Below are positions 55,444 to 64,000 of a stretch of 64,000 nt of DNA, one piece after another; positions within the stretch are counted from its first letter, which is position 1, and the number at the start of each line of letters is the position of its first letter. This stretch comes from a virus, in IMG/VR virus record IMGVR_UViG_3300011113_000664, positions 106,057 to 170,056 of that record; one strand, written 5' to 3'. The position numbers and the translations under genes are program-made. The notes under the pieces were generated by a model. That model did not search any database. It was not told where the DNA came from and worked only from the letters and a program-made list of their open reading frames with translations.

Positions 55444-56781
55444 ATGATTGATAAAATTGCACATCTCGCTGATGTCCATTTCCAAAATAATTTGGATAGA
55501 TTAGCAGAACAAAAACATATTTCAAATCTGACAATTGAATCACTTAAAAAAGATAACCCTGATTTAATTGTAATTGCAGGAGACTTATTTCATAATTATG
55601 TAAAACCATTCAATGAAATCAATGTTATTGCAGGTGATTTCTTAAATTCTTGTGCTATGATAGCACCTGTTGTGATTATTGATGGTAATCACGATATAAT
55701 GAAATCAAATCTCAATAGAATGTCATCTATTAAGATGCTTGTTGAGATTATTAACAATCCTAATATACACTACTATGACTCAACAGGTTTTTTTGAACTT
55801 GATAATATTGTTTTCGCTACTTGGTATCACCCTGATAGAAAATCCCCTTGGCTTGAATTCAATGAAGAAGAGCGCAATAATAATAAGTATTATATTGACC
55901 TTTTCCATGACCCAATTAATGGATGCTATCTCCAAAATGGACAGCTTCATACCGATAGCAATCTTGTTTCTCTTGCTGATTTTAAAGGTGATATTGTAAT
56001 GGCAGGAGATATACATCTCCAACAATCATATCAAAAAAATGGAAAAGAGTTTTTTGCTTACCCATCGTCATTATATTGTACCAATTATGGCGAAGGTGAT
56101 AATGCTTTTCATGGTTATCTTTTATGGGATATTAAAACAAAGACTTTTGAAAAGAAAGAAATAATATCAGATTATAAATACTTTAATATTTATATAAATG
56201 AAGATTATGATTATGAAAATCTTAATATTGAACTTGAAAATGTTGGAAAATATAATCATCTTAAAATTCATTGGATGGACCAATACTCAACATTTACCAA
56301 TGAGAATAAACAAAAGATAAAAAAGTATTTAGAGTCTAACTATGGTGAATTTGTCACCATTAAATTTGACAAATCAAAGATTTTAAATAAATCTTTAAAG
56401 ATTAAAGAATTTGATGAAACCATTGATTTAAATAATGATGATAGTGTAAGACAAGAATTTATAAATTTTTTGAAAGCTAAAAATCATCAAGAAGATTTTA
56501 TAAAAGATGTTTTAGCACTTGATAATGAAATATCATCTTTAATTGAAAAGGATGTAGAGAATCAATTCTATGATTGGAAAGTAAAAAAGATTGTTCTTGA
56601 TAACTTTAAATCACATGGTGAAAGATATGAACTTGATTTAACAGATAAGAATGGAATTATTCAAATCTATGGAGAAAATCAAGTTGGAAAATGTGTTCAT
56701 CCTGAAACAAAAATCAACATTAGATTCAATAAAGAAGAAATAATTGCAAAACTTGGATATTTACCTGAATTTTTAAAATAA
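55444..56781 (+). CDS. SbcD/gp47-like nuclease fused to start of SbcC/gp46 ATPase, ending in N-intein
   Basis: 445 residues. Residues 1-~340 are an Mre11/SbcD-type phosphoesterase: HLADVHF (D10, H12), IAGDLFHNY, DGNHD at ~80 and MAGDIHLQQ at ~185. From ~378 the ATPase head of SbcC/Rad50/gp46 begins: KKIVLDNFKSHGERYELDL, then IIQIYGENQVGK ending at residue 416, the first seven residues of Walker A. Residue 417 is Cys, and the last 29 residues are an N-intein (CVHPETKINIRF block A). The stop overlaps the next start (TAATG). Splicing with the protein starting at 61705 would rebuild a gp47-gp46 fusion that resects DNA ends for recombination. Alone it lacks a working ATPase. Confidence 0.9.
   Translation: MIDKIAHLADVHFQNNLDRLAEQKHISNLTIESLKKDNPDLIVIAGDLFHNYVKPFNEINVIAGDFLNSCAMIAPVVIIDGNHDIMKSNLNRMSSIKMLVEIINNPNIHYYDSTGFFELDNIVFATWYHPDRKSPWLEFNEEERNNNKYYIDLFHDPINGCYLQNGQLHTDSNLVSLADFKGDIVMAGDIHLQQSYQKNGKEFFAYPSSLYCTNYGEGDNAFHGYLLWDIKTKTFEKKEIISDYKYFNIYINEDYDYENLNIELENVGKYNHLKIHWMDQYSTFTNENKQKIKKYLESNYGEFVTIKFDKSKILNKSLKIKEFDETIDLNNDDSVRQEFINFLKAKNHQEDFIKDVLALDNEISSLIEKDVENQFYDWKVKKIVLDNFKSHGERYELDLTDKNGIIQIYGENQVGKCVHPETKINIRFNKEEIIAKLGYLPEFLK
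56692..56778 (+). other. Split intein, N-terminal part (29 residues)
   Basis: Starts with Cys directly after the P-loop Lys: CVHPETKINIRFNKEEIIAK, then nine more residues and stop. C-x-x-P-x-T-K-I is intein block A. The N-part is far shorter than the ~100 residues of usual split inteins such as DnaE, and is like the atypical phage split inteins with ~25-residue N-parts. Splice junction: ...GENQVGK | C. Confidence 0.9.
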
Positions 56782-57887
56782 TGGACAAAACCGTATTACT
56801 TACAATCATTTTTGGTGGCGCATTAGTTTACTTCAAACAATTCTTTATTTTTGTTTTAACAACTTTAAGAGATAGTGTTATCTGTTCAATGAAAATTGAA
56901 GAAAGTTCTTTTTTCTTTTATTCCTTTCAAAACTTTATTTTAACCGAAAAACAGAACTCAGTTAAAAATCTTTATTATAGAACATTTTTCGATGGTTGGA
57001 TTGCAGGAGAAGATAATGCTAATGTAAATATGTTTTATAACTCAGGATTTGTTTACATCAAATTTAAAGGTAATAGATTCTTAGTTTTAAAAAATGCTGA
57101 AAACATTCAAAATAGTATCACACCCTATAAAAATAGTAAACATATGTTTATGATTTTTTGTAGAAATAAGTCTGTTTTAAAAGAATTATTAGATTATGTC
57201 GATGTAACATATGGTAATAAATACATAAAATACTTTTATAATTTTAATGGTGAAATAAAATGTGCAGGTAGAGTAATAAATAAAACTTTTGATAATATTT
57301 ATCTTGATAATAATATATCTGAGTTTCTTAAAAATGATTTAGATAGATTTAACTCAACAAAAGAAAAGTATGATAAGTATGGAATTAGATATAAACGAAC
57401 ATATCTTTTTTATGGTCCTCCAGGAACAGGTAAATCATCACTGTCTTTAGGTATATCTAATTATACTAAAAGAGATATATTATCAATTAACTTATCTAAA
57501 GATATGACAGATGCAAATCTTATTGCTTTGATTTCTGATAGACCAAAAAAATCAATTGTTTTATTTGAAGATATTGATTGTTTATTGGAGGATATTAATA
57601 GAAAAAAAGAAGAAAAGAAAGAATCTGAAATTAAAATTTCACTTTCTTGTATTTTAAACGTATTAGATGGTATATATACACCTAATGATGTTATATTCAT
57701 AATAACCACTAATGAACTTGATAAAATTGATGATGCTATTAAAAGAAAAGGTAGAACCGATGTTTTAATGGAGATTAAAAAACCAAGTGAAAATTTAATT
57801 GAAGACTTAAAAATAAAATTTAATATAGATAACAATAAAACTTTTGATAATATATCAGAACTCCACGAAGAATTACTAAATTTATGA
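56781..57887 (+). CDS. BCS1-like AAA ATPase
   Basis: 368 residues. An N-terminal membrane segment (LLTIIFGGALVYFKQFFIF) is followed by a BCS1-N-like beta region (residues ~35-180), then an AAA core with Walker A LFYGPPGTGKSSLSL at ~208-222, Walker B SIVLFEDIDCLLED at ~255 and TTNELDKIDDAIKRKGRTD (sensor and arginine finger region). In mitochondria BCS1 translocates folded proteins; bacterial and phage relatives have unknown roles. It starts inside the stop codon of the split nuclease gene, so the two are co-translated. First of seven genes between the intein halves. Confidence 0.8.
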   Translation: MDKTVLLTIIFGGALVYFKQFFIFVLTTLRDSVICSMKIEESSFFFYSFQNFILTEKQNSVKNLYYRTFFDGWIAGEDNANVNMFYNSGFVYIKFKGNRFLVLKNAENIQNSITPYKNSKHMFMIFCRNKSVLKELLDYVDVTYGNKYIKYFYNFNGEIKCAGRVINKTFDNIYLDNNISEFLKNDLDRFNSTKEKYDKYGIRYKRTYLFYGPPGTGKSSLSLGISNYTKRDILSINLSKDMTDANLIALISDRPKKSIVLFEDIDCLLEDINRKKEEKKESEIKISLSCILNVLDGIYTPNDVIFIITTNELDKIDDAIKRKGRTDVLMEIKKPSENLIEDLKIKFNIDNNKTFDNISELHEELLNL

Positions 57888-58126
57888 CAACAAACATAAC
57901 AAACGAAAACGGACTCATTAAAGCAACCTATGATTCATCCAACATTGCATCATCAACCTATGATACCACAAACTATACATTACATATTACATTTGTAAAA
58001 GGAAACTTAGTGTATAAGTATGATAATGTAAATCCTGAAGATTACAATCAACTACAAAGTGCTGAATCCACAGGAAAAGCATTCATTGACTCTATTAAAA
58101 ATAAATATACAGGAGAAAAAGTTTAA
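57884..58126 (+). CDS. KTSC-domain protein
   Basis: 80 residues. SSNIASSTYDTTNYTLHITF, GNLVYKYDNVNPEDYNQL and STGKAFIDSIKNKYTGEKV reproduce the KTSC pattern: a short Ser-x-x-Y-D start, an F-x-x-G strand, Y-x-Y, and a closing 'S-x-G-k-f...I-k-x-k-Y'. KTSC domains are small, found alone or beside lysyl-tRNA synthetase and phage genes, with possible nucleic-acid-binding function. It overlaps the AAA gene by 4 nt and shares its stop (TTAA) with the convergent gp53-like gene. Confidence 0.82.
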   Translation: MTTNITNENGLIKATYDSSNIASSTYDTTNYTLHITFVKGNLVYKYDNVNPEDYNQLQSAESTGKAFIDSIKNKYTGEKV

Positions 58127-58425
58127 AAACTTTTGCTCACCTCTATTCTATCTCTTATAGCATTTATAAGATATTGCTTTGGCATTGGTACTCTTATAAT
58201 ATTTCCAACCTCAATATCACCTTCAGACAAATATTGAGGATTTGCAAGCAATATAAATCTACCAAATGCAGCATTATTATAATAAGTGTATGCTAACCTA
58301 TCTAAGCGATTACCAACATTCCATTCAACATAAACATCATTTGGTGATTCTTGTATTTTAAAGAACGGTAATGGTGCAAACGTGTTATCTGTTATGAAAT
58401 CGGAGTAAATATTAAATTCATCCAT
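58123..58425 (-). CDS. Baseplate wedge gp53-like LysM protein
   Basis: 100 residues. YVEWNVGNRLDRLAYTYYNN, then FGRFILLANPQY and EVGNIIRVPMP form a LysM-type unit of the sort present in T4 gp53 and in tail 'protein X'. Gp53 joins neighbouring baseplate wedges. This structural gene has a late-type palindromic motif upstream and lies on the opposite strand from the two flanking plus-strand genes, so it was probably inserted here by rearrangement. Gp53 in T4 is larger (~196), so this is a minimal version. Confidence 0.7.
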   Translation of the reverse strand: MDEFNIYSDFITDNTFAPLPFFKIQESPNDVYVEWNVGNRLDRLAYTYYNNAAFGRFILLANPQYLSEGDIEVGNIIRVPMPKQYLINAIRDRIEVSKSF

Positions 58426-58431
58426 TATAAT

Positions 58432-58448
58432 CTATTTACTTTAAATAG
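58432..58448 (-). promoter_or_regulatory. Palindromic CTATTTA-type motif before gp53-like gene
   Basis: On the minus strand: CTATTTAAAGTAAATAG, two CTATTTA halves around three bases, nearly the form of the 15397 palindrome. It ends about 6 nt before the ATG at 58425 and overlaps the end of the sigma gene. This variant is less certain than the CTATTTATA copies. Confidence 0.35.
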
Positions 58449-59238
58449 ATAAATAATCATCCTTTAATTTTTTATAAACCAATTTAAAAGATTTAAGAGA
58501 TTTTTTAATATCCTGTTTTTTATATTTGTTATTTGTGATTTCACAAATCATATCAATAACCCTATTATTGATAAAGAATAAACTCATTTTTGATTCGGTT
58601 GGTTCATTAATGTATTTAAAATTTTCAATGATTGAAATTAATGAATAACCAACATTAACATCAATTTCTTTTAAAGTTTTGTCTGATTCTATTTTGTTTT
58701 TAATTTCAGTACATAGACCAAAAAATACGATTTTTATATAATTATTATCACTATCTTCATCAAGATTTTCATTTATCTGATAAGATAAGGATAAATCCCT
58801 TTCAAATAAATCTATATTTTCCACAACATCATCACTACTTTTATCTTGATTAAAGTTTCTTTCTGAAATATGTTTTGCTTCATTTTTACAAATTGTAGAG
58901 AAGTAGGAAAATGCCTTTGATTTAACACCCTTTTTATTAATCTTTTCAGGATTAAACATGTGAAGATTATTGAAGGCAAAAATCAAAAGGTCATTTTCCA
59001 TATCCTCTATTGTGTAACGCTTTGAAAAATAAAGAAAATAGGATTTAGCAGTAAAATAAGCAAGTTTTTTAAGAGCCTTATGGATTTCCTTTTCATAAAT
59101 TTGATTTTTTTCATCCAATGAGTAGTCAGGGCTATTATATCTAATAATAGCCTTTTCTGTTGCATCGGTAAAATATTCCTTTACAGACCCCGGCTTTGCT
59201 TTCCTGCCTCGCCTACCTTTTTTTACTTCCTCAGACAT
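58441..59238 (-). CDS. Late sigma factor, gp55-like
   Basis: 265 residues, a little longer than T4 gp55 (185). A basic start (KKGRRGRKAKPGSVKEYF) precedes a sigma region 2 of about residues 50-130: KLAYFTAKSYFLYFSKRYTI, EDMENDLLIFAFNNLHMFNP and KAFSYFSTICKNEAKHISER. There is no clear region 4, as in gp55. Gp55 directs host RNA polymerase to the T4 late promoter TATAAATA. The CTATTTATA motifs in this window are candidates for its target. The gene is on the minus strand between the two intein halves, next to a glycosyltransferase. Confidence 0.72.
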   Translation of the reverse strand: MSEEVKKGRRGRKAKPGSVKEYFTDATEKAIIRYNSPDYSLDEKNQIYEKEIHKALKKLAYFTAKSYFLYFSKRYTIEDMENDLLIFAFNNLHMFNPEKINKKGVKSKAFSYFSTICKNEAKHISERNFNQDKSSDDVVENIDLFERDLSLSYQINENLDEDSDNNYIKIVFFGLCTEIKNKIESDKTLKEIDVNVGYSLISIIENFKYINEPTESKMSLFFINNRVIDMICEITNNKYKKQDIKKSLKSFKLVYKKLKDDYLSI

Positions 59239-59240
59239 TA

Positions 59241-60044
59241 TTAAATAATCGGTGCTTCTTGCTTCTTTGCATATGCTTTATTTCTATCATGAGGCCAAAC
59301 ATATTCTTTTTTAGCAAGATTCCACCAAAAAGTAACCTCATCTGCTTCCATCTTTGTTTGTTCATTTAAGTAAGAATTTTCTCTACCGAATTTTCTTAAA
59401 TAACCAATTTTAGGAATGGTATAGGTAATACCATCAATATTGGTAAATCGCATCAAAAATTCATAAACAAAACTAAGTTTGATGGATGGTTTTAAAGCAC
59501 CCGATTCTTCAAATTTTTCTTTTCTAATTGCTGCACCGCTAATTGAAACAAGATTATAATTCATCAATGTTTCCATAGTCAAATAACCATGTCTATCATT
59601 TGTTAAATCCTTTGCCCAATTAACTTCATTGATATAACGATGAATCTTTTTATCTAATGTGGTATCCGCAATAATTGGAAGAAACATATCCACATTTGAC
59701 ATTTCTTCCATATGATTTGAAAGATTTTCAAAATAGAACGGAGTTAATTCATCATCAAAATCCAAAACCATAAAGAATGAAGTCTTAACTTCTTCTACAG
59801 CTTTATTAATTTGAGATTGGATATTATCAGATGATTCATCATTAATAACAAATCTTACCTTTCTTTCAGTTTTAATTTCTTTTTTAGTTTCTGTCGTTGT
59901 AACAATTACTACCTCTTTAGGTGCATAACCATTTTTTTGATTAAAGACAGATTCTAATGCTTCTGAAAATAATTGTGTTTCCGCTTCATTTTCAAATTTA
60001 TGAATTGGAATAATTACGGTTAAATCTAAAATATTATTTTTCAT
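59241..60044 (-). CDS. GT2-type glycosyltransferase
   Basis: 267 residues. LTVIIPIHKFENEAETQLFS, VVIVTTTETKKEI, RFVINDESSDNIQSQINKAV and FFMVLDFDDELTPFYFENLS give the GT-A fold with a 'D-F-D-D' metal site. It overlaps its partner at 60034 by 11 nt, so the two are made together as a separate glycan unit away from the main cluster. Donor unknown. Confidence 0.8.
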   Translation of the reverse strand: MKNNILDLTVIIPIHKFENEAETQLFSEALESVFNQKNGYAPKEVVIVTTTETKKEIKTERKVRFVINDESSDNIQSQINKAVEEVKTSFFMVLDFDDELTPFYFENLSNHMEEMSNVDMFLPIIADTTLDKKIHRYINEVNWAKDLTNDRHGYLTMETLMNYNLVSISGAAIRKEKFEESGALKPSIKLSFVYEFLMRFTNIDGITYTIPKIGYLRKFGRENSYLNEQTKMEADEVTFWWNLAKKEYVWPHDRNKAYAKKQEAPII

Positions 60045-61107
60045 TTTCTATTACTTGTTTAATTAAATTTTTTCTATTTTCAAAAATGTTTGAAAAAGCT
60101 TGAATTAGTGTTTTTTCATGATTTTCAACTGTATATTCAGATGAAATTTTTTCCATGTTTTGATAAACAACTTCAGGTACATTATCAACCATCCATTCTT
60201 TAACAACAACACCAAGCTGTTCAGCAAGGATTTCAAGTGAATTTGACCAAACTGCTGTGTTATCTACCTTTAAATAATCTTTTTCAAGTTCAGGAATCAT
60301 ACCAATAATTACAGCACCGCTTTTCATTGCTTCCAAAGGAAGTGTACCAAATCCTGCATCTTTATCAAGCCAAAGCAAAACAGGAATTTCACCCATTTTT
60401 TCAGCAAGTTGCTCTCTTGTAATAAAAGGTTCAGCACCTTGCATTCTTTCAAACAATACCCAAGAAAGTTCAGGATATTTCATAAAGAAAATTTTAGATA
60501 ATCTTTTAATATCAGACTCACTTCTTGAAAAATACATAATAATTGGCTTTTTAATTTTCTTTGGTTTAAAATAATCAGGAATACCAATTTTATATGTTTC
60601 AATATTGTAATTTACCCTTGAATTTCTTTGAATAAATTCTTTTAGTTGTTCAGAAGTTGTAAGAATGGTATTAAAACCCCATGCTGCCCAAGTATGATTC
60701 GGTGGAAGTGAATCAAGCATATATGTTTGTGATTGACAAAGAACAATTCTTTCGCATTGAATTTTAGCATCAAAAATCTGATGCATAACATTCACAAAGA
60801 ATTCAGGTACAATCAATACATCAGTTGGTGCTACATTAATGTTGTCTTTCTTCGGTGAAAGATGTGGAACATTTCTCAAATCTTCTGATAAATAAGAAGG
60901 AATTTTGAATTCAGCTTCTTTTTCATCCTCCCCTGTAATAAGGAAAGCATTGTAATTATTTTTTCTTAAAAAATAACAAATATTATATATCTCTTCTACA
61001 GCCATTGAATATACATTCTCAGGAATAGAAGGAACATATAAATAAATGTTGAAATTATTTGCTTCAACATTTGATAACAGTTCTTTTAATTTTTCTACTT
61101 TATCCAT
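60034..61107 (-). CDS. GT-B glycosyltransferase, paralogue of 38690 gene
   Basis: 357 residues. NIYLYVPSIPENVYSMAVEE and DVLIVPEFFVNVMHQIFDA resemble the protein at 38690 (DLLVIPEGFGN), and AGFGTLPLEAMKSGAVIIGM is the shared donor-domain motif. CQSQTYMLDSLPPN matches AQSWIYIYTSMPQP there. The gene is read from a TTTTGTCGTATTTTAA motif identical to that before the glycosyltransferase at 16222. It could modify the phage DNA, virion or host glycans; unknown. Confidence 0.75.
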   Translation of the reverse strand: MDKVEKLKELLSNVEANNFNIYLYVPSIPENVYSMAVEEIYNICYFLRKNNYNAFLITGEDEKEAEFKIPSYLSEDLRNVPHLSPKKDNINVAPTDVLIVPEFFVNVMHQIFDAKIQCERIVLCQSQTYMLDSLPPNHTWAAWGFNTILTTSEQLKEFIQRNSRVNYNIETYKIGIPDYFKPKKIKKPIIMYFSRSESDIKRLSKIFFMKYPELSWVLFERMQGAEPFITREQLAEKMGEIPVLLWLDKDAGFGTLPLEAMKSGAVIIGMIPELEKDYLKVDNTAVWSNSLEILAEQLGVVVKEWMVDNVPEVVYQNMEKISSEYTVENHEKTLIQAFSNIFENRKNLIKQVIENEK

Positions 61108-61124
61108 TTTTTATTGATTTTTAA

Positions 61125-61140
61125 TTAAAATACGACAAAA
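61125..61140 (-). promoter_or_regulatory. Shared upstream motif TTTTGTCGTATTTTAA, copy 3
   Basis: All 16 bases are identical to 17643-17658, in the same orientation relative to the gene starting at 61107 and at similar distance. The divergent plus-strand gene at 61158 has a TAnnTTTG box at 61146-61153, so this 50-nt gap probably holds two back-to-back promoters. Confidence 0.4.
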
Positions 61141-61145
61141 TATTT

Positions 61146-61153
61146 TATATTTG
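61146..61153 (+). promoter_or_regulatory. TAnnTTTG box 4 nt before start codon
   Basis: TATATTTG then GGTT then the ATG at 61158. Same layout as at 55432. It would drive the HAD-like gene and, by overlap, the C-intein/ATPase gene. Confidence 0.45.
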
Positions 61154-61157
61154 GGTT

Positions 61158-61724
61158 ATGAAAACTTTTGCAATAGAGGTAAACGGAATTTTAAGAGATT
61201 TTATAAAAAAATTTGAACAATATTATAAGATTGAGTTTGCAAACAGGGATATACAATACCCTATTGACCCTTTTAATCCTTTGCTTTCATTTCACTTTGA
61301 AGATAATGAATTAGAGGATTTCTTATTTCAATACTCATATGAGTTATTTGCAAAATCAACTCTACCATCAAAGGAAATCATTGCTCAAATAAATCAGATA
61401 TATCCTGAATTGTCTGATAATCAGTATAAAGTGATAATTATATCAAGAGAAGGTGTTAAATTCAGAAATTTAACTGCATTCTATATATCAAACTTTTCAG
61501 CAGGGTTTTATTTTGATGAGATGAGATTTTTTAATAAGTTTGATGAATATGTAAATCAAAATTTTGATTATATCTTAACAGCTAATCCAAACTTATCAAA
61601 ACTATCTTTTGATAATACAAAAGTTATTCTTTTTGACCCTGAAAAGAAATACGAAAATAAAACCACAGTAAGCAATATTATTGAAATTTTCCCTATTCTT
61701 GAAAATGACAGAGAAGAAAATTAA
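61158..61724 (+). CDS. Degenerate HAD-like protein
   Basis: 188 residues. FAIEVNGILRDF stands at the HAD motif I place but with Glu-x-Asn for the catalytic Asp-x-Asp. YKVIIISREGVKFRN fits motif II ('S-R-E') and KVILFDPEKKYENK fits the loop before motif IV. With the nucleophile changed it may have lost phosphatase activity. It ends 20 nt inside the next gene, so translation of the C-intein gene may depend on it. Confidence 0.5.
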   Translation: MKTFAIEVNGILRDFIKKFEQYYKIEFANRDIQYPIDPFNPLLSFHFEDNELEDFLFQYSYELFAKSTLPSKEIIAQINQIYPELSDNQYKVIIISREGVKFRNLTAFYISNFSAGFYFDEMRFFNKFDEYVNQNFDYILTANPNLSKLSFDNTKVILFDPEKKYENKTTVSNIIEIFPILENDREEN

Positions 61725-62091
61725 AATTGGTGATTTACAGTTTTTAAAAAATTTACTTGATAAATTAAATATTGAAGTTGAAACACCATATGGATATAAT
61801 AAAATATTAGCATATGATGTTACATCTAAAAATTGTAGATATTGGACATTAGAAACCGAAACAGGAAAAAGGATTACAACATCCATAGACCACTTATTTA
61901 AAAATCATTTAGGTCAATTCGTTCCATTAAAAAATATAATGGAAGATACAATCAATAATAAAATTTTGAGTATTGATAGATTAGAATCTATTAGATTTAT
62001 AGAAACAGACCCAAGACAAGTAATAGATTTAGTAGACATTCAAGTTGAGGGTTCAGGTCAATACTATGCAAATAACATACTTGTTCATAAT
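61705..62091 (+). other. Split intein, C-terminal part (129 residues)
   Basis: Block B is GKRITTSIDHLF with H63 and Ser in the usual Thr place; block F is DIQVEGSGQYYANNILVHN, ending in His128-Asn129. The next residue, Ser130, is the +1 nucleophile and restores GENQVGK-S. Total intein length with the N-part is 158 residues, with no room for a homing endonuclease. The C-part starts at its own ATG, 20 nt inside the HAD-like gene. Confidence 0.9.
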
Positions 62092-64000
62092 TCAAATATT
62101 TTAAATTCTATTACATATGGTCTTTATGGTACTACCTTTGATACTCTCAAAAAAGAGAAGAACAGAGATAATAAATTTATCAACAACAATAACAAAAAAG
62201 ATTATTCAGAAGTTCAGTTAATTATTGAAATTAATGGGGAAGATTATGTAGTAAGAAGAAGAACTGAAAGAAAATGGGATAAAACACATACAGAAATAAC
62301 CTCTTGTTCAACCAAAACTTACTTTAATAAGTTAGATTCAAATGGTGAAATAATTGATGAAAATAATCTTTCCGAACAAGATAAAGCAAAAACCCAAAAA
62401 CTTATTGAGCAATCAATTGGGGATTTTGATGAATTTATCACAAAATCCTTAATTAATGCTGATACTCTTAATGATATTCTTACAACCGACCATGCTAAAT
62501 TCTTAGACTCAATTCTTAGAGATACAGGTCTTGATATATTTGAAAAGAAACTTGAAGTATTTAAAGCATATAAGAAAAACGAATATAAAAAAGAAAGTCT
62601 TTTAAATATTTCTGTTGATAGATACAATCAATTAATTGAGGATGCAAAAAATTATATTGAAAACTATAAAACAGAAATAAAAGATAGAAAAGAAAAAATA
62701 AAAGTTTTAGATGAAAGAATTAAAAATGGTGAAACACATGTTGAAAATACAATTAAAACTTTAAAACCAATTGATTCTCAATTATCTAAACTTGATATTA
62801 ATCAAGTTAAAAATGATATAAATAAACTTATTAATGATAAGGATGAAAAGATTAGGTCACAAAAGGACCTTTTAAAACAAATTGAAGAACTCAATAAGTT
62901 TGTATTGGATGAGGATTTATATAATTCATTAAAAGAAAAATCAAGTTCATTTAATGGTTGGTTAATTTCTAAAAATGAACAAATAAAAGATTTAAATAAA
63001 GAAATCAACAATATTACAAATGATATTTCAGTAATAAACGGTTATATACATAAAGAAAATCTTGCAGTATCAAAAATAGATTCTCAAATTGATAACGATA
63101 GATTAGGACTAGAGAGGCAAATTGATTTAATCGAAAGAGATATTTCTTTATTAGAAGATAGCAAAGTTTGTCCAAGTTGCAATCGTTTAAAGGATGAAGA
63201 TGCGATTGCATCAATTAGAGTAAAGGTTGATAAATTAAAAGGAGATATTCAAAAAATTAAAGATGACATTAAAAAAGAAACCTTTAAGAAGAAATATGAA
63301 TTAGATATTAAATCAATTAATAAAAATATAAGTAAATATAAAGAAGATATTAAAGATAAAGAATTAATGATTGAAAGTAAAAAATCATTAATAAAAGCAT
63401 TTGATGATGATATTAAAAAAGAAAGTGTAACAATTACAAAGGTAAAAGAAAAGATTACAAAGATTGAATTAATCATTAAAGAGATTGAAAAAAGAAATAG
63501 ATTCAAACAGGAATATGATAATATTCCAATGTATATTGAAAATATTGAATTGAAAATCAATCAAAAGAATGATTTACTTTCAAAGTATGATATTAATATA
63601 GTTTACATCCAAGAAAATAATAAAATTCAATCAAAGATTGATACATATAAAGCAAAAGTTAATGAGTTTAAAAATGAAAAAGAAACATTAAAAACTCAAA
63701 CCAATGATTTTGAATATAAAATTGAATTTGCTAAGAATGAAATTCAAAATTATAAAGATACAATTACAAAGTATTTAGAGCAGCAAAGACAAGAATTAAT
63801 CAGAGAGGAATATCAAAATTGTATTCATAGAGAAGGTATTCCAAGTACTCTTCTAAAGAAACTAATCCCAAAAGTAAATATGTATCTTCAAGGATATACT
63901 GAAGATATTGACTTTAATGTTTTCTTTGATAATGAACTTTTCTTTCAAATGTCAAAGAAAGACACTCCTGAAATCATTCAGAATGTTATTTCAGGTTCAG
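61705..64000 (+). CDS. C-intein plus SbcC/gp46-like ATPase, cut by window end
   Basis: Opens with ATG at 61705, open to the window end (765 codons seen). Residues 1-129 are the C-part of an intein; residue 130 is Ser, then NILNSITYGLYGTTFDTLKK, the helix after the P-loop in SbcC/Rad50/gp46. A Gln-loop-like region (EFITKSLINADTLNDILTT) follows, then two long coiled coils around CPSC (C489, C492; bases 63169-63180), the zinc-hook place. The last residues (PEIIQNVISGS) lead into the ABC signature motif. The protein has no Walker A of its own: GENQVGK is supplied by the protein at 55444. This is the gene for the ATPase of DNA-end resection. Confidence 0.92.
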   Translation, partial: MTEKKIKIGDLQFLKNLLDKLNIEVETPYGYNKILAYDVTSKNCRYWTLETETGKRITTSIDHLFKNHLGQFVPLKNIMEDTINNKILSIDRLESIRFIETDPRQVIDLVDIQVEGSGQYYANNILVHNSNILNSITYGLYGTTFDTLKKEKNRDNKFINNNNKKDYSEVQLIIEINGEDYVVRRRTERKWDKTHTEITSCSTKTYFNKLDSNGEIIDENNLSEQDKAKTQKLIEQSIGDFDEFITKSLINADTLNDILTTDHAKFLDSILRDTGLDIFEKKLEVFKAYKKNEYKKESLLNISVDRYNQLIEDAKNYIENYKTEIKDRKEKIKVLDERIKNGETHVENTIKTLKPIDSQLSKLDINQVKNDINKLINDKDEKIRSQKDLLKQIEELNKFVLDEDLYNSLKEKSSSFNGWLISKNEQIKDLNKEINNITNDISVINGYIHKENLAVSKIDSQIDNDRLGLERQIDLIERDISLLEDSKVCPSCNRLKDEDAIASIRVKVDKLKGDIQKIKDDIKKETFKKKYELDIKSINKNISKYKEDIKDKELMIESKKSLIKAFDDDIKKESVTITKVKEKITKIELIIKEIEKRNRFKQEYDNIPMYIENIELKINQKNDLLSKYDINIVYIQENNKIQSKIDTYKAKVNEFKNEKETLKTQTNDFEYKIEFAKNEIQNYKDTITKYLEQQRQELIREEYQNCIHREGIPSTLLKKLIPKVNMYLQGYTEDIDFNVFFDNELFFQMSKKDTPEIIQNVISGS

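Follow-up and report, generated by a model that had tools for sequence, protein, structure and literature searches.

We analysed a 64,000-nucleotide window of the viral record IMGVR_UViG_3300011113_000664 (IMG/VR; positions 106,057 to 170,056), whose last part very probably encodes a naturally and atypically split class 1 mini-intein of the Cys1/Ser+1 type, lying between the Lys and the Ser of the Walker A motif in a phage fused SbcD-SbcC (gp47-gp46, Mre11-Rad50) nuclease. An earlier sequence-only reading had placed both half genes correctly to the base (Table 1); they lie 4.9 kb apart. Its description of the two proteins was reproduced: the one starting at 55444 ends with GENQVGK (final extein residues ...GIIQIYGENQVGK) and a 29-residue N-intein opening with Cys, whereas the one starting at 61705 opens with a 129-residue C-intein carrying His63 and closing with His-Asn (...QYYANNILVHN), after which the C-extein begins at Ser (SNILNSITYGLYGTTF...). 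Joining the exteins gives GENQVGKSNILNSI, the exact Walker A motif that had been announced, and in register with this junction an uninterrupted homologue has GENQQGKTTIIDAI. A chance GK/S junction was considered and rejected, because this homologue is in register and the arrangement is kept in eight other contigs. The ATPase part held by the N-extein is the first Rad50 strand, up to GENQVGK, and the C-extein contains a coiled coil with a CPSC zinc hook. The end of the window coincides with the end of the 170,056-bp record (G000), and the C-half gene is therefore truncated. Complete C-precursors of relatives (L009-L013) measure 842-856 amino acids (aa) and harbor SGSGMER and ILLLDE, the expected ABC (ATP-binding cassette) signature and Walker B region; the ligated length in relatives with complete genes is 416 + 727 = 1143 aa.

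The two parts match intein profiles when searched as the sequence-only reading proposed, the joined 158 residues hitting PF14890 (E 0.0017), TIGR01445 (E 0.007) and the gp41-1 intein structure (E 2e-7). When six C-inteins were combined into a profile, its five matches among PDB sequences all bore inteins, the best being gp41-1 (6qaz, E 1.7e-7). A structural model of the C-part alone has VidaL (6vgv, E 1.5e-4) and gp41-1 (6qaz) as its top PDB matches, and inteins occupy the top 40, further matches being the DnaB, NrdJ-1 and DnaE inteins together with the consensus atypically split intein (6dsl); from this part, a HINT (Hedgehog/intein) fold is predicted with moderate confidence. The N-intein aligns with block A of the TerL and gp41-1 inteins (the gp41-1 sequence in the alignments agrees with the part of the PDB sequence available for comparison). 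In the alignment, the break lies in the variable region separating block A from the conserved strand that follows; judged by length and alignment, this would correspond to the S2 position, after the first helix. With 29 aa in the window and 32 aa in L001, the N-intein lies within the 15-37 aa of naturally atypical split inteins (PMC13014065), which bears out the likeness to the few atypical phage inteins that had been pointed out from the sequence. Three intein models identified no other intein in this record, a soft negative given that two of them miss even this one.

The N-half gene with the same ending is present in eight further IMG/VR contigs from seven metagenomes, and the sequence of the N-intein, its Cys1 and its stop position are conserved in all eight, except that the stop lies three codons later in L001. 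Six of the eight also carry the C-half gene, one of them only its start, and the halves are separate genes in every relative with both on the contig. Cys1 is shared by the window and all eight N-precursors, and the relatives are also invariant for SxxH with His63, for D111, for DLVDIQVEG.G.YYANNI.VHN (V127, H128, N129) and for Ser+1 (S130); Cys1, the block B His, the terminal His-Asn and the +1 nucleophile are those of a class 1 intein. This invariance contrasts with an identity of only 57-60% between the C-intein of the window and the others. The ratio of nonsynonymous to synonymous substitution (dN/dS, Nei-Gojobori) is 0.02-0.35 in the N-intein, a noisy estimate from 29 residues, 0.14-0.34 in the C-intein, 0.06-0.10 in the N-extein and 0.10-0.17 in the C-extein where it is long enough to measure; both intein parts are under purifying selection. 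The dS of the C-intein reaches 1.2-1.9, near saturation, versus 0.3-0.6 in the flanking exteins, in comparisons involving the window and mostly L006; since it exceeds that of the exteins, this hints that C-intein alleles may have been exchanged between phages. Between the window and its relatives, synonymous sites of the C-intein (61705-62091) have diverged two- to fourfold more than those of the exteins, and those of the N-intein to an ordinary degree. Scans of viral and genome collections with the C-intein alignment, able to detect only fairly close relatives, revealed no further host of this intein among the matches listed.

The joined exteins are collinear with a single 1202-aa protein of LR756501, a 735-kb uncultured phage, that carries a metallophosphoesterase and an SMC-like ATPase in one chain. 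Its identity to the N-extein is 37-38% (37% over residues 1-418) and its junction reads IQIGGENQQGKTTIIDAICFILYGTTIST. This single open reading frame (ORF) shows directly that the N- and C-exteins once formed one protein. Single fused proteins of 1310-1326 aa also exist in Tenacibaculum phages PTm1 and pT24 and Chryseobacterium phage MA9V-1, and Mel-JY01 is another uninterrupted phage SbcD-SbcC fusion; all share the fused nuclease-ATPase and, unlike the window, have no intein at the site. In LR756501, PTm1, pT24 and MA9V-1 the site reads GK/T or GK/S. Scanning IMG/VR with the N-extein alignment yielded another 24 distant relatives, a few groups of which are near-identical among themselves; 23 of the 24 read through the P-loop with an empty K/T or K/S site (for example GKNTFGKTTILKSISY and GKNTAGKSSIIQLLSY), indicating that the fusion preceded the intein. 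The remaining one (L049) is broken upstream of the P-loop, within the SbcD half, and its P-loop is intact.

In that contig (IMGVR 3300044712_001937), about 980 bases (L049:10603-11583) interrupt the SbcD half of the fused gene, and behind them the protein sequence continues with the very next residue. An ORF within the insert has treble-clef zinc motifs and matches Vsr-like nucleases weakly. The insert is probably an intron that carries a homing endonuclease; against this, no Rfam intron model matched it.

Class 1 inteins splice by an N-S shift, transesterification to the +1 residue, Asn cyclisation and an O-N shift, and this standard route is by far the most likely one for trans-splicing here. 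The two precursors would be made from separate transcription units, and the 29-residue N-intein would dock onto the 129-residue C-intein, completing the HINT fold. Cys1 would then form a thioester through an N-S shift, Ser+1 of the C-extein would take over the N-extein, and cyclisation of Asn129 followed by an O-N shift would leave a scarless GENQVGKS P-loop. Neither precursor alone is expected to bind ATP, because the Walker A motif is cut between K and S, so that only the ligated protein would have the whole ATPase head beside the nuclease in one chain. The gene order probably goes back to an intein gene, contiguous or split beforehand, whose parts were moved apart as ordinary phage genes were inserted or rearranged, a change that splicing in trans would make tolerable. 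It is conceivable, but in our view unlikely, that the split has been kept as a two-key switch, in which the DNA-end-processing ATPase would be assembled once both transcription units are on, thereby timing the nuclease in infection.

Several observations weigh against a functional split intein. The Pfam and NCBIfam scores lie below the curated cut-offs, as is common for diverged phage inteins, and the model, which covers the C-part, has a pLDDT (predicted local distance difference test) of 67, a moderate confidence. Ser replaces the Thr of TxxH in block B, and block F has E or Q at the position of the histidine in 'NHLFYAN' of gp41-1, so the splicing rate could be modest. The block F histidine is present in many, not all, inteins and is not strictly defining; its absence may affect the rate and is compatible with splicing. 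Both the ligation and the need of the nuclease for it are deduced from sequence, and the record, linear and possibly a fragment, may represent an incomplete genome.

If the intein halves were ligation-dead, the two proteins could work as a non-covalent pair, or one of them alone, with association of the intein parts serving at most as a tether. Complementation between ATPase fragments is possible in principle, T4-type gp47 and gp46 are naturally separate proteins, and a block F without its usual His fits such a loss; yet the break lies inside the Walker A motif and not at a domain border, Cys1, His63, His128-Asn129 and Ser+1 are invariant despite about 40% difference among C-inteins, and dN/dS is well below 1 in both intein parts, which makes this quite improbable. 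That the genes are decayed remnants, their role taken over by a further gp46/gp47 located in another part of the genome, appears more improbable still. A complete second gp46, which the sequence-only reading had singled out as a concern, is absent from the 170-kb record, whose possible incompleteness leaves this alternative some room, but neither frame is disrupted, both are kept in the related contigs, and dN/dS is about 0.1 in the exteins; a pseudogene was rejected. Metagenomic contigs can also be chimaeric, and an assembly artefact could have placed two pieces of a contiguous gene apart; its probability is practically negligible, and it was rejected since the same layout recurs, diverged and with variable small insertions (an FkbM methyltransferase in L002, no AAA gene in L007), in several independent metagenomes.

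The split intein has close parallels. It resembles AceL-TerL, GOS-TerL and the engineered consensus Cat in being a phage-type split intein with an N-intein of about 25-30 aa, and the structures that its C-part matches in fold include that of Cat (6dsl); AceL-TerL and GOS-TerL are naturally split after the first helix, at S2 (PMC13014065). It differs from these three in its host, theirs being the terminase, and in its C-intein of 129 aa. VidaL, its best structural match, is likewise a natural, atypically split and Cys-dependent intein with a short N-intein, which is however 16 aa long and split after beta-strand 2, at S1 (PMC13014065), versus 29 aa here. The gp41-1 intein, from a cyanophage-like helicase and its best PDB sequence match, shares Cys1, a P-loop NTPase host and a metagenomic phage source, but is shorter, canonically split near the endonuclease insertion site and in a different host protein.

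The joined-intein profile also recognises the contiguous TerL intein of Vibrio phage Kuja and the gp17A/17B split intein of Aeromonas phage PX29, annotated in its record as 'putative N-intein' and 'GIY-YIG endonuclease and C-intein'. As in the window, the halves of the PX29 terminase intein belong to two genes, the first ending in a short N-intein and the other containing the C-intein, but the PX29 genes are adjacent and a GIY-YIG endonuclease precedes the C-intein. An endonuclease also lies at the break of AceL-NrdHF (PMC7891396), in contrast to the window, where none is recognised and the halves are probably in separate transcription units. In Kuja (L058:3485-5731), annotated as terminase only, the intein lies in the Walker A motif at ARQSGK/TT. 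Aeromonas phage AsFcp_2 (L059:2109-5107) seems to have a split terminase intein of the PX29 type as well, the second half of which is entered as a misc_feature, not a gene, in an UNVERIFIED record.

The novelty claimed by the sequence-only reading holds in part. The host protein is new in the literature searched, as is the gene layout, whereas atypically split phage inteins were already known and P-loop insertion between Lys and Thr, the K/S or K/T site, has been described as 'classic' (PMC5050341). No intein in the Rad50 or SbcC family is described in that literature, whose coverage takes in few subscription papers, making the fused SbcD-SbcC a probable rather than proven new intein host. A fused Mre11-Rad50-type nuclease would thereby join the short host list of naturally atypically split inteins, as a phage recombination gene that has persisted in the form of two half genes. 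The nucleophile pair of the intein, Cys1/Ser+1, is natural, its N-intein is within or close to reach of chemical synthesis, and its C-intein is available in five or more distinct natural alleles. If splicing is efficient, the intein could be put to use directly for protein ligation, and could serve to test whether split inteins in important ATPases have a regulatory use.

Table 1. Features of the split nuclease gene and of the region between its halves (window positions)
Feature	Position	Strand	Length and content	Matches and remarks
N-half gene	55444-56781	+	445 aa	
N-extein	55444-56691	+	416 aa; SbcD/Mre11 (gp47-like) metallophosphoesterase and first part of SbcC/Rad50 ATPase, to GENQVGK	Pfam Metallophos E 3e-12; phrog_35725 E 1e-25
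N-intein	56692-56778	+	29 aa, CVHPETKINIRFNKEEIIAKLGYLPEFLK	block A, Cys1
Stop codon	56779-56781	+		right after N-intein
BCS1-like AAA ATPase	56781-57887	+		Pfam AAA E 3.5e-19; directly after N-half gene
KTSC-domain protein	57884-58126	+		Pfam KTSC E 4e-15
Baseplate wedge-like protein	58123-58425	-		phrog_7145 E 6e-8
ORF	58441-59238	-		no Pfam or PHROG match
Family 2 glycosyltransferase	59241-60044	-		Pfam Glycos_transf_2 E 5e-9
ORF	60034-61107	-		
ORF	61158-61724	+	188 aa	end overlaps start of C-half gene by 20 bases
C-half gene	61705-64000	+	765 aa encoded up to contig end	
C-intein	61705-62091	+	129 aa	block B His63, block F, terminal His128-Asn129
C-extein	62092-64000	+	remainder of SbcC/Rad50 ATPase from Ser(+1) of Walker A	phrog_77 SbcC-like E 3e-18; cut at contig end

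No homing endonuclease was recognised with Pfam or PHROGs among the ORFs between the halves, three of which have no family match. The two half genes probably belong to separate transcription units, because intervening genes lie on the opposite strand. The T4-type late promoter TATAAATA occurs 24 times in the window versus 25 expected, no more commonly than by chance, and therefore no claim about transcription rests on it. The gene order is conserved in relatives with small differences: the AAA gene is present in most and missing in L007 and L010, and an FkbM methyltransferase is added in L002 and L003. The overlap between the 188-aa ORF and the C-half gene is retained in relatives, and may reflect translational coupling of the two genes. 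Finally, the ORF at 58441-59238 is about 87-90% conserved in relatives and resembles, by eye, a T4 gp55-like late sigma factor.
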